Translations under genes and position numbers: made by a program
Part shown: positions 9,324 through 21,647 of the stretch, in pieces
How positions within the stretch are numbered: the stretch's first letter is position 1
Layout: every line of letters starts with the position of its first letter
Notes under the pieces: model-generated
The model's database searches: none
Seen by the model: the letters and a program-made list of their open reading frames with translations, nothing else
Told to the model about the DNA's origin: nothing
Origin: a virus
IMG/VR virus record: IMGVR_UViG_3300045993_000696
Span: 1 to 21,759 of that record
Length of the DNA stretch: 21,759 nt
Direction: 5' to 3' (one strand)

Positions 9324-10202
9324 TTAAACTCCGATTGCTAACCATGTCCATAAACCAGTATTTCCATTTGTACCAGGTGTAATACTTGTTGTAGTGTAGG
9401 TTACTCCAAATTCACCTATGGCAGCACTGCCAGAATATCTTACTGCGACAGCAGAATAAATGGTGGAGAATGCAACAGGGAATGTTTGTGTTGCCCAACC
9501 AACTGGACCACTCCACTGAATTAACAATCCATTGCTTAGGCGTTGATAGCCCTTAACTGCTAAACTCGAAACTCCCAATCCGCTTGCTCCTGCTGGTCCG
9601 GTAGGACCTTGGGGACCAGTTGCACCTGTAGGACCAGCAACACTGCTAGCTGCGCCAGTTGCCCCAGTAGGACCCTGCGGACCTGTAGGACCCTGAGATC
9701 CAGTTGCCCCAGTAGGACCTTGAGGACCAGTAGGTCCAACAACACCTGTACTACTTCCAGGTACGCCCTGAGGACCTTGAGGGCCAGCCGGTCCGGCTAC
9801 AGTGCTGGCTGCGCCGGTAGGACCCTGAGGTCCTTGTGGACCCTGAGGTCCAGTTGCTCCAGCTACTCCAATAGATTTTATCCATCCATAACCAGGTGTT
9901 TCTGAGGTATGATAGACAGTAACACTTCCTGCAGTAGTAGGGTCAACACATACATAAAGAATATTTTCAGTTGTTTTAAACCATAACTGTCCTATCGTGG
10001 GATGGGCTGGTGGAGTTGTAGCAGCAAAATGCTCTAAAAGATGTAGAAAATTTTCTTGCTGAATTTCTCCATAGTTAACAACACCTTGTCCTGTGAGGAC
10101 TAAGGGTGAATGTGTAGTATCCGTAACCCCATCAGCAAGGGTAAATTGCGTCTTTCCTAAAGCGCTATTATTACTTGCCCAATCAATAATGAATGCTGTC
10201 AT
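9324..10202 (-). CDS. Tail fibre protein with collagen-like repeats
   Basis: This gene encodes 292 residues. Residues 44-86 ([18 protein letters not shown]...[17 protein letters not shown]) resemble a virion-attachment domain common in myovirus fibres (YGxxxxENFLxLLExFA, GQLWxxT). Residues 112-210 form a collagen-like Gly-X-Y shaft rich in GPTGPQ and GPTGAT triplets, broken by three Ala/Ser/Val spacers ([21 protein letters not shown]). From 217, [18 protein letters not shown]...FPVAFSTIY resembles the C-terminal tip domain of many fibres. It should trimerise and mediate host recognition at the tip. GGAG precedes the ATG, and a late promoter overlaps the terminase end upstream. Confidence 0.85.
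9573..9869 (-). repeat. DNA repeat tract encoding the collagen-like shaft
   Basis: Short imperfect nine-base units, seen on the plus strand as variants of GGACCTGTAGGACCTTGAGG, repeat through this stretch. They encode Gly-Pro-Thr-Gly-Pro-Gln triplets. The tract is prone to slippage or recombination that would change shaft length in nine-base steps without shifting frame. Confidence 0.8.
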
Positions 10203-12457: not shown

Positions 12458-12698
12458 GAAGTATATTCGATTTTGATATTTTAATCTTTTGCGCAAAATC
12501 TAAATTGCGGCCAATAGTCATATGTCTAACTAACTCTTTCTTATAGAAAGCAACCTGTTGATTAGTAGGAGTAAAGTTGTCTTTAGTCTTACATCTATTT
12601 ATCTCATTAGCAACCATCATTTCAATCACCTCGTTGTAGTGATTTACTCTGTCGCTGGTAACAACAAATGCTGTTCGGTATGGGGTGTTATCAGACAT
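12423..12698 (-). CDS. Small protein of unknown function after the ART-like genes
   Basis: This gene encodes 91 residues beginning MSDNTPYRTAFVVTSDRVNHYNEV. The ATG overlaps the stop of the ART-like gene by eight bases (ATGTCTGA). A GTG start at 12752 would overlap by 62 bases and is less likely. It is mixed alpha/beta with a long basic helix region (NQQVAFYKKELVRHMTIGRNLDFAQKIK). No recognisable domain is present. The 3' end overlaps the hydrolase gene start. Confidence 0.6.
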   Translation of the reverse strand: MSDNTPYRTAFVVTSDRVNHYNEVIEMMVANEINRCKTKDNFTPTNQQVAFYKKELVRHMTIGRNLDFAQKIKISKSNILHETPNRLSSRV

Positions 12699-13503
12699 TT
12701 GCTTTTTGAAATTCTTTAAGGTGATTATAGAGAATAGCAATACATTTACCACCTATCCAAACTTCACTATTCTTTGCTGGTGGTTGATAGTTATTTGCTG
12801 TGAATAACTGAAATCCAGTTTTTGCTGGTGAGAATGCATCCCATATCATCGGCATAAAATTATCAAATACCTGTTCATCTGGTGGCTTGCTAGTAGTCTG
12901 CTTATACATAACTACTACCTTCTTAACTGCTGCTGGGTTTCTTTCTTTCAGCAACTTATCAAATTTCATAAAGCCTTCCATCGTCGGTTTAATTCCCAGC
13001 TCTTCCTCAAATGCCATATTAAATCCGTAAACATCGCTCTTAGCACCGAACAATTTTATCAGTGTTTTCCACATATCATTTCTATTAATAACACCAATTT
13101 TTACTCCATCGAGGGGGATAAGAGCATAGACATTATCCTTAGTATAAATGCCATGGTTGTTTTCCGCAAATCCTTCTGCAGTCGATTTACTTGTTGATGC
13201 TATAAAAGAGCGTGAGCGCTTTGGATAGTCCTTCATATCGGGGTGATTATCAAACAACACAGTGTAATGATTGGAAGTATTCTGACTTACGCGTTCAGTT
13301 TTTGATGGGTCAACGATTGCATATCCCGTTTCTCTAAGCGATGGTGCTATGGTTGTTTCGCCACGATAGAAACATATGCCATACTTTTTGTAAATGCTAC
13401 AGTCATCTTTTACAAGCCTAACAGCATTTTCCAAAGTCAAACCCTGAAATGTTGGTGCATTGCCAACTGCTGCTTCAGATAAAAATTCCTTAAAGCTTAG
13501 CAT
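12691..13503 (-). CDS. ADP-ribosyltransferase-like protein with capsid-targeting peptide (paralogue A)
   Basis: This gene encodes 270 residues from the ATG at 13503 (GAGGAAG upstream). It begins MLSFKEFLSE followed by AAVG, which fits a T4-like capsid-targeting peptide cut after L-x-E by the prohead protease. The body matches paralogues B and C. The motif order fits R-S-E ADP-ribosyltransferases: FYRGE with Arg47, SRSFIASTS with Ser103-Thr-Ser105, and a late Glu247 in KNSEVWIGGK. NHYTVLFDNHPDMKDYPKRS before the STS motif is nearly identical in all three. T4 Alt is a packaged, injected ART that modifies host RNA polymerase, so a similar role is plausible, but the target is unknown. The classical E-x-E is N-S-E here, so activity needs proof. 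Confidence 0.65.
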   Translation of the reverse strand: MLSFKEFLSEAAVGNAPTFQGLTLENAVRLVKDDCSIYKKYGICFYRGETTIAPSLRETGYAIVDPSKTERVSQNTSNHYTVLFDNHPDMKDYPKRSRSFIASTSKSTAEGFAENNHGIYTKDNVYALIPLDGVKIGVINRNDMWKTLIKLFGAKSDVYGFNMAFEEELGIKPTMEGFMKFDKLLKERNPAAVKKVVVMYKQTTSKPPDEQVFDNFMPMIWDAFSPAKTGFQLFTANNYQPPAKNSEVWIGGKCIAILYNHLKEFQKANV

Positions 13504-14275
13504 ATGCTTCCTCAAAATCATCTATCATTTTCATAGTTACGCACATGCATATCCCACTTACCCATACCTCATTATCATCTGCTAGTATTGGGAGAGTTGC
13601 TGGGGTATAGAATGCCATTCCGGTATTCTTAGGAGAGTATGCTTCCCAGATACTTTCCATAAAGTTATCTTTATACTTCAATCCTTCTGTTCCTAATTCT
13701 TGCTGAAGTTTTAGCATTGCAGATGCATTATTGTCTTTTAGTTTCTTATCGAAATCTAAAAATCCTTGGATAGTAGGTTCAATTCCCATCCACTTGAAAT
13801 ACTTGTTGAAGGTATTTATTTTACCTGTCTCACCAAAAAGTTTTATTTCGGTCATCCACATATCTTCTTTGGGGCAAACACCAATTTTTGTGCTGCTAGT
13901 CGGTATTACAACATACATCTCATGTCTCGAATCACCATATGTAAATCCCTTTGCTGTTTCATAATCAGCAGAAGCAATAAATGATTTCGATCTCTTTGGG
14001 AAGTTCGTCATCTCAGGGTGATTGTCGAAGATGACTGTATAATAGTTAGAAGTATTTTCGCTTTCACGAGAAGTAGCTGAAGTATCCACGACCCCAACAC
14101 CAGTCTTTATAAGTTCTGGCGGTAATCCATGTTCACCTCTATAGATAGGATTTCTGCCAGTAAAAGATGGACAATGCTTCTTTACGAACTCAGCTGCCTT
14201 TTCAATAGACACGCTTCTCCAATCTGGCTTAGCATCTACTGCTCGTTCTTGGATAAATTCTTTAAAGCTTATCAT
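13490..14275 (-). CDS. ADP-ribosyltransferase-like protein with capsid-targeting peptide (paralogue B)
   Basis: This gene encodes 261 residues beginning MISFKEFIQE, then RAVDAKPDW. PIYRGE gives Arg46, KSFIASADY sits at the STS position but has Ser102-Ala-Asp, and Glu236 lies in DDNEVWVSG. The stretch SRESENTSNYYTVIFDNHPEM is shared with A and C, and the C-terminal WEAYSPKNTGMAFYT is also conserved. The STS motif is degraded relative to A and C, so this copy may have changed specificity or lost activity. Its start forms ATGA with paralogue C and its end overlaps paralogue A by 14 bases, so the three are one translational unit. Confidence 0.63.
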   Translation of the reverse strand: MISFKEFIQERAVDAKPDWRSVSIEKAAEFVKKHCPSFTGRNPIYRGEHGLPPELIKTGVGVVDTSATSRESENTSNYYTVIFDNHPEMTNFPKRSKSFIASADYETAKGFTYGDSRHEMYVVIPTSSTKIGVCPKEDMWMTEIKLFGETGKINTFNKYFKWMGIEPTIQGFLDFDKKLKDNNASAMLKLQQELGTEGLKYKDNFMESIWEAYSPKNTGMAFYTPATLPILADDNEVWVSGICMCVTMKMIDDFEEAYAKL

Positions 14276-15063
14276 TTCATCGCACGTCTAAGTTGGTCCC
14301 ACATCTGCATAGTAATATACATTATCTTACCGCCAACCCATACCTCGGAAGTTTTACTGTTGCGTGGCATTGTCTTTGTAGTGTGAGCCGTGAAACCGGT
14401 TTTTGATGGGCTATATGCTTCAAAAACAAGTTTTAAAAAATTATCTGTCCATGACTTATTGCAAACATCTATGTCTAGACCATCTTTAAATCTTTCTATT
14501 GCATCTTCATTTCCGGCTTTCAATTCTTTATCGAATTTCTTAAAACTTTCAAGAGTTGGCCGTAATTTCATCCGAATAAATGAGTCATTGAATACACGAA
14601 TGCCCCAATATTCGTGGAACAAATCAATTTTAGTATCCCACATATCATCATTATTAACGAAGCCAATTTTTACACCATCAAACGGTATCATCACTAAAGT
14701 AGAATACATATCTGCAAATGCTTGAGCTCTAAATTTACTTGTTGAGGCAATGAAGGATTTTGAACGCTTTGGGAAATCCTTCATTGAAGGATTATTATCT
14801 AAAAGCATCGTATAATAGTTCATCGTGTTTTGACTTTCTCGGGTGGTCGCAGAAGTATCCACAGTTAAAAACCCTAGCGATTTAGCTCTGCGTGCCACTT
14901 CAGAAATTTCTCCACGATAAATTGGACTATCCTGTTTCAACATCCACAGTGCATCTTGACAGTGTTCATTAAGCATATCGATGGCTTGCTTAACTTCCAC
15001 TTCCTTGAAGTCTGGTTCTTTCCCGACTGCTTTTTCCTGAATAAATTCTTTAAAGCTTAGCAT
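14272..15063 (-). CDS. ADP-ribosyltransferase-like protein with capsid-targeting peptide (paralogue C)
   Basis: This gene encodes 263 residues beginning MLSFKEFIQE, then KAVGKEPDF. SPIYRGEISE gives Arg50, KSFIASTSK gives Ser107-Thr-Ser109, and Glu240 lies in KTSEVWVGGK. The TTRESQNTMNYYTMLLDNNPSMKDFPKRSKSF block matches the other copies. It is the first of three tandem copies. Its ribosome site AAGGAA (15076-15071) is made of the Lys-Glu codons of the LSFKEFL sequence that ends the preceding 72-aa gene. It is probably packaged into the head and processed after Glu10, although the next residue is Lys rather than the Ala, Gly or Ser preferred in T4. Confidence 0.65.
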   Translation of the reverse strand: MLSFKEFIQEKAVGKEPDFKEVEVKQAIDMLNEHCQDALWMLKQDSPIYRGEISEVARRAKSLGFLTVDTSATTRESQNTMNYYTMLLDNNPSMKDFPKRSKSFIASTSKFRAQAFADMYSTLVMIPFDGVKIGFVNNDDMWDTKIDLFHEYWGIRVFNDSFIRMKLRPTLESFKKFDKELKAGNEDAIERFKDGLDIDVCNKSWTDNFLKLVFEAYSPSKTGFTAHTTKTMPRNSKTSEVWVGGKIMYITMQMWDQLRRAMK

Positions 15064-15268
15064 TTAAAAATTCCTTGAATGATAAGTTCTCTTTTAAGCC
15101 CATCATCTTCTTAGCAATGCCCATTGTCAATGGCCAAAACTTACCATCACCCTCATCAACATCGTATTCTTTCTTTACGATACTTTTGGCCACGTGCCAA
15201 TAATGTTCGGCCTGACCATCCGAAATCTTTGCTTTCTTCGCAAGATGTTTGAGAGCTGCTTGGGGCAT
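15050..15268 (-). CDS. Small basic helical protein ending in the capsid-targeting motif
   Basis: This gene encodes 72 residues starting MPQAALKHLAKKAKISDGQAEHYWHVAKSIVKKE. The segment through KFWPLTMGIAKKMMGL is a small helical domain I associate with phage structural or head proteins (LAKKxGKSxxxxExxWxxAKxxxKK...FWxxxMGIxKKMLG), with no known function. The last residues are NLSFKEFLNAKL, which repeats the LSFKEFL signature found at the N-termini of the ART-like proteins but lacks the cleavage Glu. The stop falls inside the next gene, with 14 bases of overlap. GAGGATAA precedes the start and overlaps the stop of the 349-aa gene. Confidence 0.75.
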   Translation of the reverse strand: MPQAALKHLAKKAKISDGQAEHYWHVAKSIVKKEYDVDEGDGKFWPLTMGIAKKMMGLKENLSFKEFLNAKL

Positions 15269-15269
15269 T

Positions 15270-16319
15270 TTATCCTCTAGATAATTGTTTCCAGATAACT
15301 AAAGGCATAGAAACTATTTCTTTATTTCTTTGCATAAGACTAACTTTTTCACCTTCATTAAGCTCTACACTAAAGTCACCAGCCTTACCAAGAAGCTTTG
15401 GAAATTCCATATCAGTGTCATGAGCTTCAGTTAGCGGACATAATGTATCTGCTTCTGCAAAAGACATCATATCACCCTTGAACTCTGGGCAATAGCTTCC
15501 AGTTTTTGCCTTAGCATAATAAATCGCAATGCAGTTCTTGCCATCGTATGCACATAAAACACGAGCGCCATCAATAGCGGATTCATCATAGTCATTTGCA
15601 CTATCACTTACCTGTTCAAACTTACCGTAGTTTATTTTCTGAAAAGTATATTTGTCTTTCGATTCTTTAAGCTTTTTGTTAATAGCAAAGTATGCGGAAA
15701 CAAAGTCGCTTGGGAAATCTTCATCATAGCTAAAGCTGTATGAAGCAGACTTCTTACCTAAATCGGCAACTGCGATTTTATATCCAGCATCTAATACTTC
15801 TTTTTCCGTCTTAAGACCGGGCTTTACTTTTTTAGCGAGCTTTTCAGCATAGTTGCCACGATTAGCCTTTTCAGCTTTTTCTGCACCAGCCTCATCTTCC
15901 GATTCTTTCACCGGCTTTTGCTGCCAATCTTTATAGCCCATATTATATGCCTTGACATGCAAGTCATATGGTTGTTCTTTTGGCCAAGGAGCCTTCTTTG
16001 GCTTGCCAGCTAAAGCATGTTCTTTACCAAGGGCATATGCTTTGTCGTAGTCACCGGATTCATTAACACTTTCAGTTACTTCATATTCATCTTTAGGGAA
16101 ATAGTCTTTAACATATTCAGTAAGTTCAGAAGATGGGAGTTCTGCTGCCATTGTATCTGTATTCATAATACTTTTGACAATGAAGCTAACTGCTTGAGCA
16201 TACGTAGAGCCTTCAGGGATATCGGCATTGCGACAGAAGTCTTCTACCGTATCCATAATAGCATTTTTCATTTGCCCTTCTTTGAGGGCTTTCATTTGGA
16301 CTAGTTGTTTGAGTAACAT
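15270..16319 (-). CDS. Putative head-internal processed protein, companion of the 1325-aa protein
   Basis: This gene encodes 349 residues with AAAGGAATA before the ATG. I do not recognise a catalytic domain. Sites fitting T4 prohead protease specificity occur at LKE-G (13-15), VTE-S, VKE-S, LKE-S, LTE-A and LNE-G. The N-terminus MLLKQLVQMKALKEG could be a propeptide. KAYALGKEHALAGKPKKAPWPKEQPYDLHVKAYNMGYKDW is a repeat-like helical motif known to me from small phage proteins. EDEAGAEKAEKANRGNYAEKLAKKVKPG is a charged linker. The C-terminal 100 residues look folded (YSFSYDEDFPSDFVSAYFAINKKL, GARVLCAYDGKNCIAIYYAK). Its position directly after the large modular protein and before the targeted ART-like genes suggests a prohead role. 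Confidence 0.7.
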   Translation of the reverse strand: MLLKQLVQMKALKEGQMKNAIMDTVEDFCRNADIPEGSTYAQAVSFIVKSIMNTDTMAAELPSSELTEYVKDYFPKDEYEVTESVNESGDYDKAYALGKEHALAGKPKKAPWPKEQPYDLHVKAYNMGYKDWQQKPVKESEDEAGAEKAEKANRGNYAEKLAKKVKPGLKTEKEVLDAGYKIAVADLGKKSASYSFSYDEDFPSDFVSAYFAINKKLKESKDKYTFQKINYGKFEQVSDSANDYDESAIDGARVLCAYDGKNCIAIYYAKAKTGSYCPEFKGDMMSFAEADTLCPLTEAHDTDMEFPKLLGKAGDFSVELNEGEKVSLMQRNKEIVSMPLVIWKQLSRG

Positions 16320-16320
16320 A

Positions 16321-19300
16321 TTATTCCTTTGAAGATTTTACAAGCTTAATGTCTTTAGCTTTGAGTTGAACGGATTTCATACCAAAATTTGGCTGAGTGG
16401 ATTTTTCATCATGGTCATAGTCAATGGTAAAAGTCTTTGGAGAATCTCCTGCTGGACCAGTTCTGATTTCACCAATGAAACCTTCTTTACCGATGCAGTC
16501 TTTAGGACCAGAAACAATCTTTACTTTTGCACCGATTTTGTATGGGCTAAAGCCTTCATCAAGCTTGCCATCTTTACGGGTCAAGTCAATCTTGTATTGT
16601 GTCTTAGCATGGTTCCAAATCTTCTGAACAGTTAGCAAATGTTGTCTGCGTTCTCTATCACTCTTAGCCATATCGACCCAGCCTAAAGCATCTTTGTAGT
16701 CTTTACGAAGCTTAGCAATATTTTCTTCCTTGCCTTCTTCGACTGGGACAACCTTAGCAGTTCCAACCATATGGTTCTTATTGCCAATCTTTTCAGTCTT
16801 CTTGATATTTTCTAGCTTGCTTTCTTCTTCCTTGCGCTTCTTAGCAATTTCGTATGCTACTGAACCTTTGCGAGGAAATCCACCATGCTCAACAACCTTC
16901 TTTGGTGCTTTACGACCAGCATTAAGCGCAACTTCATTAGCAATCTCTTCAGAGAAATCTTCACTCGTCAGCATGTTGATGATGTCTTCATAGTCCATGT
17001 CAGCATCGGCATTGCGGTTGAAGTATGCTTGAGCCTTCTTCAACTCGGACGGCTTAATTGCTTCTGAAAGAACAACACCCTTCTCTTTGTCTTGGTCCCA
17101 AACACCATACGAACGGTCTTCACCTGGGACTTCAGCAGAGATAGTATCCTTACCACCTTCCATACGACCCTTGAACTTAATCTTCTTAGCTTGTTGAGGG
17201 TAAGAGTTTAATACTGCAGCTTTCCAGTCATCAAAGTCAGTGAATGCTTCTTCCTTCATCACTTCTTTTATTTCAAAGTGATTTACTGGGCGACCATTTA
17301 CAGTGTAAAATCCTGAACCCTTATCATACTTGGTAATCTTACCAACTCCGGACCCATCCTTTTGTGGTGGATCCATTTCAAATTTTACAACTTGTCCGAC
17401 TTTGTATTTTGGTTCTTTTGGAGCTGCACCCATTATTTTAGCAGCTAGCTTTTGCCCGAATGTTTCTTCCTTAGCTTCAACAGTCTTTATCTTTAATAAA
17501 TCTGGGTTCTTATTAATGATTGCCTTCATTTCATTTTCTGGCAATGTTGAAAAACTATCACCGGATTTCGCAGCTAATGCATCTGCCTTCTTCATGTTGA
17601 TGAGCTTACATTGCTCAGCATGATCTAAAGTAGCAAATCCAAACTCACCATGCTTTTCTTCAGCTATATTGTTAAGCATGTCCCAAGGAGATAGATTTTT
17701 ACCCTCAACTGTCTTAATCATATTGTGATAGAGACCTGTTGGATCAAGTTTATACTTGCCACTCTTCTCAGCATATTTACCCTTCTTCCATTTCTTATTG
17801 AACTCATCGCGGGTCATAGCACCAGCCATCATACGGTCAAAGTCCATTTTCTCTTTAGCTTTTAATCTTGTAGCATTCTTTTCATCTTTTTGCTGTTGTT
17901 GCCATGCTGCGTGGTCAGCATCAGTCATAGGCTTCTTCAAGGCCATATTCTTTGGCCATGGCGTATTCGTTGATTCCTTAACTTCTAACTTTTCGATATC
18001 ATAATCAATATCATAATCTCGTTTGAGTGCTCGGACTATTGCTTTTGGGGCACCCGCAATAATACTCTGTTTACCGTTGGCTTTATCTGTAACTACAATA
18101 GCACGGGACCCAGGATATGCATTGTCCTTAACAAGCTTAATGCTATATTTTTCTACAGATTCCTTAACTTGCTTTTTTACTGTCACGCTGAACCCAGTGT
18201 CCCCAAAGCGTTTGACCGAAAATCCAGCAGCTCTCAAGAGCTTCATCAAGTCAGTGCCTGCAGCTTGATCAACTGCATCATATTCGATCGTGTCTTCATC
18301 GCTGTCTTTGCCGATGTTGATAGGGAATCCGATAACAACACAACGACATGTCTTGACCTTCTTACCAGCAAATGCTTCGAAGTTAGCCAATGCAGACTTG
18401 GTAAAATCTACCTTGACTGCACCTTCAGCAACTTTCTCTGGGAATTTAGTGATAAACAATTTAGCACCCTTAACTTCACTTTCAATACCAAGTGGCTTAA
18501 GCAACTTTTGAATTTTCAAAGCATATCCACCATAAGAAGTTTGGATATAGTTTTTATCTACAACGGTAGCGTGTTTAAATGGAACATTTTTATTAGCCCA
18601 CTTATCTAGCTGAGCCATAGATGATGGGGCTGCACCTTCGCTAACTGATTCTTTGTATGTCTTACGGATTCTAAATCCAAAACCGCTCCAAGCAGAACCA
18701 TCAGTTGTGTCGAACACAAAATCATAACCGTCTGAAGTCTTGATAACAAAGTTATCGCCTTTAACTGGTTGTCCAGTAATATAACCAACCTCTTTTCTCA
18801 AATCATTTACCATCGCTTTGAATGTAGCATGAGGGATTTGACCACCAACTTTAACAAACAAATCAAACTTAGACGATGACCCGTATGAACCATGAACAGT
18901 AGTTCCATGAGCAAGTTCAATCATACCATACTTGATAGCCTTGAATGCCATCGTGTTTGGTGCTGATGGGACTGATGTTTGTCCAGCCTTAGCATGCGAT
19001 TGATAATCGTCAACGATATCTTGAAGAGTATCTTTAAGAGTCGATCTGAGAATGGTTGCTGTTAAAGTTGATTTTTTTGGTTTTTGCGACATTGTTTCTT
19101 GTTCATCACCATCATCTGAATCCCAGGTATTTTTATCATTTGGATTAAATACTGCTTCTTTAAGCTCACCAAAGTTATTGCGAACATATTCTTCTGCTTC
19201 TTCTGCAGTATCGATAGGGCCTTCGATGTCCATACCATGGCGATAATCTTTATGAATCCAGCTCATGATATCGGATGGCTTCAAGTAGCTCATGTAGGAA

Positions 19301-20298
19301 GTTCCCCACTTATAATCTGCTTTACCCTTGTATGGTTTTTCGTGCCATTTGCCACCGTCGGACTTCGTGACTAAACCAATCCAAGACTGTTGTTCGTCTT
19401 CATCGTAGAATGCTACGTAGAAAGTATCTTGTTCGTCTTGGTCAAAGATTCCATCTTCGTCATCTTCATCGCTGTCTTCTTCTCTCTTATCTGCATCTTC
19501 ATCAGACTCTTTGGTAACATCAGAAGAGTGGAATGAATATTCCTTGTTGTCTTTGAAGAGCTTAACGACTACAAACTTCTTATCTGTTCCAAACTTTGTG
19601 ATTTCGCCGGTGTCATCTTGATGCTCTACATTACCCGTGATAGCAACAACATCGCCTACTTCGCATTTGTCTGCTGTAGGGCCAATATCTTCGCGACCTT
19701 CCGTAATAATGCTCTCATACAAATCCATATTGTCCATCAAAAATGCTAGCACTTCTTTAGCGAACTTTGGAGCTGCAGCTTTTGCTTTCTTAGCGGTCTT
19801 GCTAGCGCCATAACCGGTGACAGCAAAGGTTGCTGTATCAGTAATTATCTTCAATGCTTGTGGCTTAAAATCGCCAATAGACTTTACCTTGGCCCGCTTC
19901 ATTTCCTTCTTGATATTGTCTGCAAGTTCAGCAGCATAGGTGTCATGATTGTAAGCATTGTCGATAATGTCATACAAGTCATCTTCATCTACAATCTTGT
20001 TTCTAAGCAACCACGATTCAAAATCGGTCGGTTCATTCACTGCTTCTGTAACAACAGATTCATTAACTTCACGCCACTTACCATTGTTGTAAGAACCGAT
20101 GGTTTCGTCATCATCGTACCAATCTGATACATAAAATTGTCCATTGTTCTTATTCTTATTGATGTGTTGAACAACTCCACGAGCAGCACTAATGCTTTTA
20201 GCGGTCTTATGTGCTCGAAGCAGGTCAGCTTGCATCTTATTTGACTTAGCAAGGTCAGAATCTTCAGACAATTTCAAAAGTTCTTGAGATAGTTTCAT
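16321..20298 (-). CDS. Giant modular protein, putative capsid-internal polyprotein
   Basis: This gene encodes 1325 residues, by far the largest here, with CGGAG before the ATG. I do not recognise the whole protein. It looks like a chain of small domains joined by charged linkers. KOW/SH3-like barrels lie near 212-262 (CEVGDVVAITG), 964-1012 (YKVGQVVKFE) and 1252-1320 (PYKIGAKVKIVSG). A very acidic linker lies at 263-292, and a DFDDWKAAVLNSYPQQAKKIKFKG domain at 1021-1079. Sites of the T4 prohead protease type, [LIV]-x-E before A/G/S, occur at residues 85, 200, 381, 554, 625, 713, 775, 1079 and 1248, mostly at module borders. The start MKLSQELLKLSE may be a targeting peptide. I infer a packaged precursor cut into several peptides; a scaffold-like role is an alternative. 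Confidence 0.7.
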   Translation of the reverse strand: MKLSQELLKLSEDSDLAKSNKMQADLLRAHKTAKSISAARGVVQHINKNKNNGQFYVSDWYDDDETIGSYNNGKWREVNESVVTEAVNEPTDFESWLLRNKIVDEDDLYDIIDNAYNHDTYAAELADNIKKEMKRAKVKSIGDFKPQALKIITDTATFAVTGYGASKTAKKAKAAAPKFAKEVLAFLMDNMDLYESIITEGREDIGPTADKCEVGDVVAITGNVEHQDDTGEITKFGTDKKFVVVKLFKDNKEYSFHSSDVTKESDEDADKREEDSDEDDEDGIFDQDEQDTFYVAFYDEDEQQSWIGLVTKSDGGKWHEKPYKGKADYKWGTSYMSYLKPSDIMSWIHKDYRHGMDIEGPIDTAEEAEEYVRNNFGELKEAVFNPNDKNTWDSDDGDEQETMSQKPKKSTLTATILRSTLKDTLQDIVDDYQSHAKAGQTSVPSAPNTMAFKAIKYGMIELAHGTTVHGSYGSSSKFDLFVKVGGQIPHATFKAMVNDLRKEVGYITGQPVKGDNFVIKTSDGYDFVFDTTDGSAWSGFGFRIRKTYKESVSEGAAPSSMAQLDKWANKNVPFKHATVVDKNYIQTSYGGYALKIQKLLKPLGIESEVKGAKLFITKFPEKVAEGAVKVDFTKSALANFEAFAGKKVKTCRCVVIGFPINIGKDSDEDTIEYDAVDQAAGTDLMKLLRAAGFSVKRFGDTGFSVTVKKQVKESVEKYSIKLVKDNAYPGSRAIVVTDKANGKQSIIAGAPKAIVRALKRDYDIDYDIEKLEVKESTNTPWPKNMALKKPMTDADHAAWQQQQKDEKNATRLKAKEKMDFDRMMAGAMTRDEFNKKWKKGKYAEKSGKYKLDPTGLYHNMIKTVEGKNLSPWDMLNNIAEEKHGEFGFATLDHAEQCKLINMKKADALAAKSGDSFSTLPENEMKAIINKNPDLLKIKTVEAKEETFGQKLAAKIMGAAPKEPKYKVGQVVKFEMDPPQKDGSGVGKITKYDKGSGFYTVNGRPVNHFEIKEVMKEEAFTDFDDWKAAVLNSYPQQAKKIKFKGRMEGGKDTISAEVPGEDRSYGVWDQDKEKGVVLSEAIKPSELKKAQAYFNRNADADMDYEDIINMLTSEDFSEEIANEVALNAGRKAPKKVVEHGGFPRKGSVAYEIAKKRKEEESKLENIKKTEKIGNKNHMVGTAKVVPVEEGKEENIAKLRKDYKDALGWVDMAKSDRERRQHLLTVQKIWNHAKTQYKIDLTRKDGKLDEGFSPYKIGAKVKIVSGPKDCIGKEGFIGEIRTGPAGDSPKTFTIDYDHDEKSTQPNFGMKSVQLKAKDIKLVKSSKE

Positions 20299-20355: not shown

Positions 20356-21000
20356 TTATAATGAATGTATGAAATCTTCCATCTCTTCACTCTTCCAGAC
20401 AGCACCATACAAGCTAAACTGATAAAATCTACTACACTTAAACATTATTTCCCCTTCGGCTTTAATAGCATCCACTAAATCAGTGTTGTGATACCAATCT
20501 GCAGCGTCCATGCTTTTGATAAGTGCGTTTGCAGCGAGTTCATTTTTTTCATCGTATGATATTTTATTATCTACATCTACTGCATTTATCCTCCACCTTT
20601 GATGATTCAGCGCGATGGTCAAATCATAAAGGTCTGGGTCCGAGCAACTAACCCATTCAAACTTACCAATGGGGAAAATAATATCGATCGGTTGAACCCC
20701 AGAATATGTTTGGGCAGTATCCTTTCTACCAGTAGCAAACATCCAATTTCTAACTGGTGCCCCAAACTTTTTAGTAAAGAAATCATTAAGAAGAGTGTGG
20801 GCGATTTTAGGTGTATTACGTGGTTCTGTTCTACCTTTCCAAGCAGTGATTTCCCAATCCTTAGTTCCTGCAGGCTGTCCTCGATACATTAGATATTTGC
20901 CCGCACTTCCCTTAAGTTGGTCTAAAGTAAAAGCACAGTCTGTCTTAAACTTTTCCAAGTTAAACTTACTGCCTTCAGTCAGGAATTCTTTGAATCTCAT
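20356..21000 (-). CDS. ADP-ribosyltransferase-like protein with capsid-targeting peptide (short subfamily, Arg type)
   Basis: This gene encodes 214 residues beginning MRFKEFLTE, then GSKF, an ideal T4-type L-x-E/G cleavage site. YLMYRGQP places Arg40 like the first ART motif. NWMFATGRKDTAQTY (85-99) sits where S-T-S is expected. AEGEIMFKCSRFYQF (181-195) supplies a proper E-x-E (Glu182, Glu184) on the last core strand. The order and spacing fit a mono-ADP-ribosyltransferase better than any other fold I can think of. The neighbouring gene is a paralogue sharing EPR-[ND]T, RNW-[ML]-F, IFPIGKF-[ED]-W and EIM motifs. The start forms ATGA with that gene. A role as an injected host-modifying enzyme is inferred by analogy with T4 Alt. 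Confidence 0.6.
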   Translation of the reverse strand: MRFKEFLTEGSKFNLEKFKTDCAFTLDQLKGSAGKYLMYRGQPAGTKDWEITAWKGRTEPRNTPKIAHTLLNDFFTKKFGAPVRNWMFATGRKDTAQTYSGVQPIDIIFPIGKFEWVSCSDPDLYDLTIALNHQRWRINAVDVDNKISYDEKNELAANALIKSMDAADWYHNTDLVDAIKAEGEIMFKCSRFYQFSLYGAVWKSEEMEDFIHSL

Positions 21001-21647
21001 TTGCGTTCTTTCAGATACAATTTAATTTTATGGAGGATTGGAGATGAGGCAGATGAATTCAACGTATTCACAGCATAAAATTTATCGCAGCGAATCATTA
21101 TTTCATTCTTAGATTTTAGACACTTATCTAAATCGTTATCGTATCTCCACTCCATTTTGTTTAATTTGGCGGTGGCATCATAGATTGCTTTCATTTTTAT
21201 TTCGCCAAATGTAAGCCCAGTAGGATTCTTTTGATTCGCACTCATATAATCTCTATTGATGAGAGCAATAAAATTTGTCATATCACGTGTCTCAGGGTCA
21301 AGACAACATATCCAATCAAACTTGCCTATCGGGAAAATCGCAACTGGATAGTCATTTGCGTAGTAATTTGCATCATGAAAATCACTGGTGGTGAAGAGCC
21401 AGTTTCTTGCTTCAGCACCGAATTTTCCTTTGAGGAATTTATTCATTACCTTGTGTTGATTAGGATCTGTATCTCTAGGTTCAGAACGTTCATGCCAGGT
21501 TCTAATATCAAATGTTTCAGGGGAGTCCTGTGAGCCGTGAAATAGAAAATGTTCGCCATCTAATCTATCTAGGACATAGGCACAATCTACCTTGAATTTT
21601 TCAAAGTCAAATTCTTTATCCTCTTTAAGGAATTCTTTGAATCTCAT
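20997..21647 (-). CDS. ADP-ribosyltransferase-like protein with capsid-targeting peptide (short subfamily, His type)
   Basis: This gene encodes 216 residues beginning MRFKEFLKE, then DKEF. It aligns along its length with the next gene (EPRDT, RNWLFTTS, VAIFPIGKFDW, NEIMIRCDKFY). At the first motif it has FLFHGSQ, with His37 in place of the Arg of YRGQ. H-G-S/T is the signature of the other ART branch (diphtheria toxin and PARP, the H-Y-E group), so this may be a real change of active-site type or simply a dead copy. The second motif is FTTS (85-88), closer to S-T-S than its neighbour. The candidate Glu is 182, in K-N-E. No strong ribosome site is visible, and the start overlaps the upstream stop (ATGA). 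Confidence 0.58.
   Translation of the reverse strand: MRFKEFLKEDKEFDFEKFKVDCAYVLDRLDGEHFLFHGSQDSPETFDIRTWHERSEPRDTDPNQHKVMNKFLKGKFGAEARNWLFTTSDFHDANYYANDYPVAIFPIGKFDWICCLDPETRDMTNFIALINRDYMSANQKNPTGLTFGEIKMKAIYDATAKLNKMEWRYDNDLDKCLKSKNEIMIRCDKFYAVNTLNSSASSPILHKIKLYLKERK

Follow-up and report, generated by a model that had tools for sequence, protein, structure and literature searches.

A putative head-internal polyprotein of a T4-superfamily giant phage with predicted cleavage sites of the gp21 type

The virus fragment IMGVR_UViG_3300045993_000696, the whole of which (21,759 nucleotides, 21.8 kb) is called the window here, carries genes for a T4-type large terminase, a RecA-like protein and a single-stranded-DNA-binding-like protein, and its nearest named phages by terminase are giant T4-superfamily phages such as PA5oct, XacN1 and Atu_ph07. 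An open reading frame (ORF) of 1325 residues at 16321..20298, proposed in an earlier sequence-only reading, is borne out, but it lies on the minus strand; the opposite (plus) strand has 35 stops. The whole protein has no match in Pfam, PHROGs or INPHARED. The window also carries a run of genes with products beginning in MISFKEFIQE-type leaders, and in the window lineage the gene for the 1325-residue protein sits near the terminase among genes whose products bear a capsid targeting sequence (CTS). The sequence-only reading took the protein for a possible capsid polyprotein, carried into the prohead as one chain and cut there at nine [L/I/V]-x-E sites. The analysis described here suggests that a T4-superfamily giant phage probably makes it as a head-internal polyprotein, which would be packaged and then processed by the homolog of T4 gp21.

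T4 gp21 cuts after L/I-x-E, and leaders of 10-19 residues target cargo (PMC9026906). Each of the nine sites proposed in the 1325-residue protein is found at its residue, and three more are present at residues 80, 195 and 1188. The resulting 12 [LIV]xE[AGS] motifs compare with 3.7 (standard deviation 1.9) in 5000 shuffles of the sequence (p=0.0002). Among 209 ORFs of the lineage, the strongest site excesses belong to orthologs of the polyprotein, to head-operon genes and to the neighbouring 349-residue protein, in which the excess is even stronger than in the 1325-residue protein (Table 1) and which has a module in common with a head-operon protein (L070, 11857-13254). The gp22-looking protein encoded beside the major capsid gene of XacN1 has 11 sites against 3.5. 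In the T4 control, the same motif type marks IPII and IPIII at residue 10, IPI at 19, gp24 at 10 and gp23 at 65; there is a motif excess in the multiply cut gp22 (10 vs 3.1) and gp67 (3 vs 0.6), and none in gp17, gp18 and gp20.

The modules of the 1325-residue protein recur in IMG/VR relatives, where their number and order differ. The relatives measure 1096 residues in L002, 1002 in L079, 718 in L010, 465 and 377 in L003, 528 in L083, 525 in L009 and 218 in L048, and blocks of 60-190 residues are common to them in differing sets and orders. The FTDFDDW module, at 1017-1079 in the window protein, lies at about 265-327 in L002, 402-465 in L003 and 377-440 in L009; in L048 it directly follows the leader, and it is the only module of the 1325-residue chain that occurs nearly stand-alone. 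A search of GTDB genome contigs gave no relative of it.

The module borders coincide with the sites. In 14 proteins with 90 internal block borders altogether, 42 borders are no more than four residues away from [LIVFM]xE[AGS], whereas random glutamates place 14.0 borders (standard deviation 3.0) near and reach 42 in none of 5000 trials. Since the two members of a pair do not yield independent borders, the figure for a single protein matters, and in the window protein alone 8 of 13 borders lie near a site against 2.2 expected (p=2e-4). Sites with Leu or Ile at P3 lie near a border in 29 of 49 cases (5.3 expected) and sites with Val at P3 in 16 of 32 (3.5 expected), the tie to borders being as strong for Val as for Leu/Ile. 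The control motifs, none of which is associated with borders, gave 2/30 for a hydrophobic P1' (3.0 expected), 12/81 for a polar P3 (9.2 expected), 1/16 for Asp at P1 (1.8 expected) and 3/53 for Lys at P1 (5.9 expected). Therefore, the borders track the specificity expected of a gp21-type protease that also accepts Val.

Several neighbouring cargo modules form a separate gene in one phage and part of a longer chain in another. Modules that are separate genes elsewhere begin with a T4-type CTS (MISFKEFIxE/, the slash marking the cut), and among 46 leaders that match M..FK.F[IL]x, 45 have Glu at P1; T4 IPI starts with MKTFKEF. The mature N-terminus of the separate form was projected on the fused form in 13 comparisons, and in 10 of them it coincides exactly with the position that follows [LIV]xE; several of the 13 are between homologous proteins and so are not independent. 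The GNAT, zeta-toxin-fold kinase and ADP-ribosyltransferase-like (ART-like) modules of neighbouring fusions also occur as stand-alone genes; the sites compared are LRE/KVNSKIFF vs VRE/AVNDKIFF for GNAT, ISE/STADKGIL vs VTE/GVNDKHIF (Atu_ph07) for the kinase and LSE/AAIKNWDV vs ITE/AVVKPWAV for the ART-like module. The FTD module of the window protein is off by one, at a non-canonical MKE/E, a protein of Atu_ph07 is off by four (SITE/T), and the junction of the double ART-like protein AUZ94866 of the same phage has no site (1 of the 13 comparisons).

A protease of this type is encoded in the lineage. The S77 family of T4 gp21 (PF03420) scores over the cut-off in G001, G002, G003 and G007, the contigs behind L011, L009, L048 and L012, and each of them also has a member of the polyprotein family. 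In G001 the protease has a portal gene nearby, together with genes for a major head protein and for a protein at the position of gp22; in the 239-kb contig the separation is estimated at about 23 kb. In the window lineage the gene for the 1325-residue protein does not lie between portal gp20 and major capsid gp23, and only distant module relatives are in the head operon: one of 502 residues upstream of gp21 (L087) and another next to gp21 (L086). A 465-residue module relative is encoded downstream of gp23 (L070). The leader MKLSQELLKLSE/D fits a T4-type CTS in its length and L/I-x-E end, is conserved in L002, L079 and L010, and resembles the leaders M[KL]LL..L..[LI].E of head genes of relatives, but it departs from the FKEF type and has no Glu at that position in L003. 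In this lineage a single ORF appears to comprise several folded modules, between which lie predicted sites of a protease that the lineage itself encodes.

In AlphaFold2 models of the protein, the sites lie in low-confidence stretches (mean predicted local distance difference test score, pLDDT, 34 vs 49, p=0.0015), in agreement with the proposal of small domains joined by linkers. Foldseek gave no significant match for the models; it lists the SH3-like folds of NusG, PsaE and CAP-Gly at E 0.08 or worse, so that the KOW-like domains named by the sequence-only reading are plausible but unproven, Pfam giving no match.

Several observations weigh against processing of one packaged chain. The strict T4 form [LI]xE[AGS] occurs 5 times against 2.3 in shuffles (p=0.07, not significant), and because of this the site excess needs Val to be accepted at P3. 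T4 gp23 has five further motif matches beyond its known cut at residue 65, and hence the motif alone is not proof of cleavage. Some half of the block borders are not near any canonical site. The window itself has no protease gene, and the leader is not of the FKEF type and lacks the Glu in the L003 ortholog. Confidence is low in both AlphaFold2 models (pLDDT 39.6 and 59.6); since this is so and the Foldseek results are not significant, no function is claimed from the fold.

Processing of one chain is nevertheless supported by the module shuffling, the border sites, the specificity at P3, P1 and P1', the junction matches and the S77 protease, whereas the label 'capsid' of the sequence-only reading is not. 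Head-internal (cargo or core) is the better name, because the genes around it encode internal proteins with a CTS and not shell proteins. The protein is not taken for a shell protein, since major capsid protein, portal and protease each have a recognisable gene of their own in the lineage. In the proposed process, the leader would take the chain into the prohead core, as for the neighbouring CTS-bearing proteins, and the S77 protease would cut within the linkers, behind the Glu of [L/I/V]-x-E/[A/G/S], yielding about ten mature peptides of 60-300 residues. These peptides may remain in the head with the DNA and reach the host together with other packaged proteins. Recombination at the cut sites would add, remove and reorder modules, so that one gene would give equal dosage of a set of swappable small proteins. 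A broader hypothesis, for and against which the balance is about even, is that the prohead protease serves T4-superfamily giant phages as a processor of polyproteins. A modular, recombining cargo chain would then enter the head in one packaging event and be cleaved there to small proteins in fixed ratio that are injected with the DNA, and the design would recur in several lineages (the window group and Atu_ph07, and perhaps cyanophages, P-TIM68 and Cr30).

Cargo is favoured over an expendable core. If the polyprotein instead belonged to the prohead core (scaffold), as gp67, gp68 and gp22 do, gp21 would cut it only to clear the head and the peptides would be expelled without a role in the host. 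In T4, gp22, gp67 and gp68 are indeed broken down to a number of pieces, most of which are removed (PMC9026906), and cargo is no more than the likelier reading because the related modules of L087, L086 and L070 are in head-operon proteins by gp21 or after gp23. A core is unlikely, however, for a window-lineage gene that stands among CTS-bearing enzymes away from gp20-23, and the modules look folded, other packaged modules existing as stand-alone proteins. Moreover, scaffolds of the gp22 type are acidic coiled coils, unlike the 1325-residue chain, in which most modules are neutral or basic.

Short Lys/Glu-rich interdomain linkers are common, and an uncut multi-domain protein of the virion or cytoplasm could have acidic linkers that resemble sites by chance. 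The border association is confined to motifs compatible with the protease in positions P3, P1 and P1' and the junctions match mature N-termini exactly, which makes such an uncut protein quite improbable. The sites could also be relics of CTS-bearing genes fused by stop loss, with old leader-cleavage sites kept unused in the linkers, and a whole FKEF-type leader does lie inside the fusions of L002, L003 and L009 (LKE/AKSFKEFINE/RAID). Most linkers, however, keep only the [LIV]xE/[AGS] core, the FKEF part being lost, and Val at P3 is common in linkers and not seen in leaders. These features suggest selection for cutting rather than decay, and relics are very improbable, the least credible of these explanations. 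A gp21-processed chain of head-internal cargo is thus preferred, and its parts are listed in Table 1.

Table 1. Modules of the 1325-residue chain and neighbouring genes in the window; slashes mark predicted cuts, numbers after the motifs the residue before the cut
Feature	Positions	Strand	Basis or remark
Residues 1-12, N-terminal leader MKLSQELLKLSE/D; possible second CTS type	20263..20298	minus	function inferred
Module 13-80, common to L002, L079, L003 and L010; end VNE/S80	20059..20262	minus	BLAST block 1-81 and site
Module 86-200, helical, between VTE/A85 and ITE/G200; in none of the relatives found	19699..20043	minus	comparison, model
Module 201-381, KOW-like part and DTFYVAFYDE domain; end LKE/A381	19156..19698	minus	BLAST block 198-384 and site
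Module 382-554; end VSE/G554; no relative found	18637..19155	minus	site
Module 555-625; end VAE/G625	18424..18636	minus	site
Module 626-713, common only to L003 309-402; end VKE/S713	18160..18423	minus	BLAST block 623-714
Module 714-775; end VKE/S775	17974..18159	minus	site
Region 776-1016, helical part and KOW-like part near 960-1012	17251..17973	minus	site, structure model
Module 1017-1079 (FTDFDDWK...VLSE), most widespread; end LSE/A1079	17062..17250	minus	comparison with relatives
Modules 1080-1188; end VEE/G1188	16735..17061	minus	BLAST blocks 1077-1136, 1142-1184
Module 1189-1248; end LDE/G1248	16555..16734	minus	site and BLAST comparison
C-terminal KOW-like module 1249-1325	16324..16554	minus	BLAST blocks 1232-1324; SH3-like folds, not significant
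349-residue second probable polyprotein, MLLKQLVQMKALKE/G...	15270..16319	minus	9 sites vs 1.6 expected
72-residue module; in L002, L003 and L009 joined via LKE/(A/S)...CTS to an ART-like module	15050..15268	minus	comparison
CTS-bearing ART-like protein, MLSFKEFIQE/K	14272..15063	minus	phrog_12810
CTS-bearing ART-like protein, MISFKEFIQE/R	13490..14275	minus	leader, PHROGs
CTS-bearing ART-like protein, MLSFKEFLSE/A	12691..13521	minus	leader, PHROGs
CTS-bearing internal protein, MRFKEFLTE/G	20356..21000	minus	phrog_11975
CTS-bearing internal protein, MRFKEFLKE/D	20997..21647	minus	leader, PHROGs

Paralogous CTS-bearing ART-like proteins (phrog_12810, phrog_11975) form arrays at 12691-15063 and 20356-21647 of the window and at 9169-20277 of L074, and Atu_ph07 has about eleven ART-like paralogs in a row with the leader M[RK]WxQL[TN]E/; their likeness to ADP-ribosyltransferases is an R-S-E motif seen by eye only, with no Pfam match. 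XacN1, the best-scoring terminase match, lacks such a CTS cluster near its terminase. A CTS-bearing zeta-toxin-fold kinase is encoded at 7003-7734 of L002 (Pfam Zeta_toxin, 3.8e-13), 1815-2549 of L003, 2666-3397 of L009 and 7128-7847 of L048, and is probably packaged cargo. An ORF for a GIY-YIG/NUMOD3 endonuclease (5560-6219 of L003) interrupts the polyprotein at a VLSE module junction, leaving two ORFs. A stand-alone protein of 63 residues related to module 13-80 (FYVSDWYDCDTTVKSYFNGK) is encoded at 2119-2310 of L100 and 5619-5810 of L101, in an apparently unrelated phage context. Large unannotated modular proteins with modules in common are encoded at 6186-7694 of L087 (between portal and gp21), 2841-5861 of L105, 3819-5867 of L102 and 3471-5519 of L103. 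They belong to other T4-like phages, including P-TIM68, Cr30 and S-SKS1, and some adjoin a CTS-bearing cytidylyltransferase (P-TIM68 MKSFTSFFTE/A), so that cyanophages possibly have the same design. In L010, L011 and L012 (10001-10885), the similarity to terminase ends at residue 259 and the sequence continues as CCSSWASINTSIGKTTLEELYECLLE, an apparent intein. The window further encodes a probable homing endonuclease, which is LEM-3-like, of the GIY-YIG kind and has a NUMOD3 motif (688-1521), and a collagen-repeat tail-fibre protein with a gp53-like C-terminal domain (9324-10202).

If cargo processing of this kind is true, capsid targeting and gp21 processing are no longer confined to a single cargo for each gene but extend to a chain of cargo modules, which would be a natural multi-cargo format for T4-based delivery. 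The exact N-termini predicted here can be checked in existing virion spectra. A CTS, or internal [LIV]xE/[AGS] junctions, may serve as a sequence rule for unannotated packaged proteins of giant phages, which defeat homology searches because their modules are shuffled.

RNA viruses and retroviruses also make polyproteins, single chains from which a protease of the virus releases several mature proteins, in retroviruses within the forming particle. They differ from the chain described here in that protease and virus are unrelated to it and its products would be small accessory internal proteins. The polyprotein strategy is known from animal viruses; for packaged phage proteins, a search of the open literature (subscription papers and preprints were outside its scope) gave no description of it and no paper joining polyprotein and prohead protease. 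The statement of the sequence-only reading that no phage example has been described agrees with this and needs a qualifier, because T4 gp22, gp67 and gp68 are multiply cut.

The T4 internal proteins IPI, IPII, IPIII and Alt are similar to the proposed cargo in having a short N-terminal leader ending in [L/I]xE/ that is removed by the S77 protease. Their cargo genes vary between phages and include a packaged ADP-ribosyltransferase, Alt, and similar genes adjoin the 1325-residue gene. In T4, however, there is one cargo per gene with a leader cut, Alt being cut also at the C-terminus, whereas the 1325-residue chain has about ten modules and internal sites with Val accepted at P3. Among head-internal proteins of giant phages, the inner-body and ejection proteins of phiKZ-type phages and of SPN3US are cleaved by gp175/gp245 behind a Glu, in some of them at more than one position, and SPN3US head proteins are cut after A-x-E; the motif is S/A-x-E, propeptide removal is the main outcome and no multi-module release from one chain is reported in the sections covered (PMC5694885). 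The 778-residue protein AUZ94865.1 (phrog_12810) of Atu_ph07, a cultured Agrobacterium phage, has the same design in combining a CTS, an ART-like module, VTE/G and a zeta-toxin-fold kinase; it is without sequence homology to the 1325-residue protein and is annotated as hypothetical only. By gene order, the ART-like array of Atu_ph07, which is homologous to neighbours of the 1325-residue gene, spans about coding sequences (CDS) 53-63, inside the cluster of CDS 31-76, from which electrospray ionization tandem mass spectrometry (ESI-MS/MS) detected 29 proteins in virions, a count for the cluster as a whole (PMC6102473). The T4 core proteins gp22, gp67 and gp68 resemble the proposed polyprotein in being cut into several fragments by gp21 and, for gp22, in the same motif excess, but they are scaffold that is degraded and cleared, their genes lie between gp20 and gp23, and they do not form a series of exchangeable folded domains. 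Multi-fragment cutting by gp21 is thus already known from the T4 scaffold, and the new aspect is the presence of several folded, exchangeable modules in one chain.

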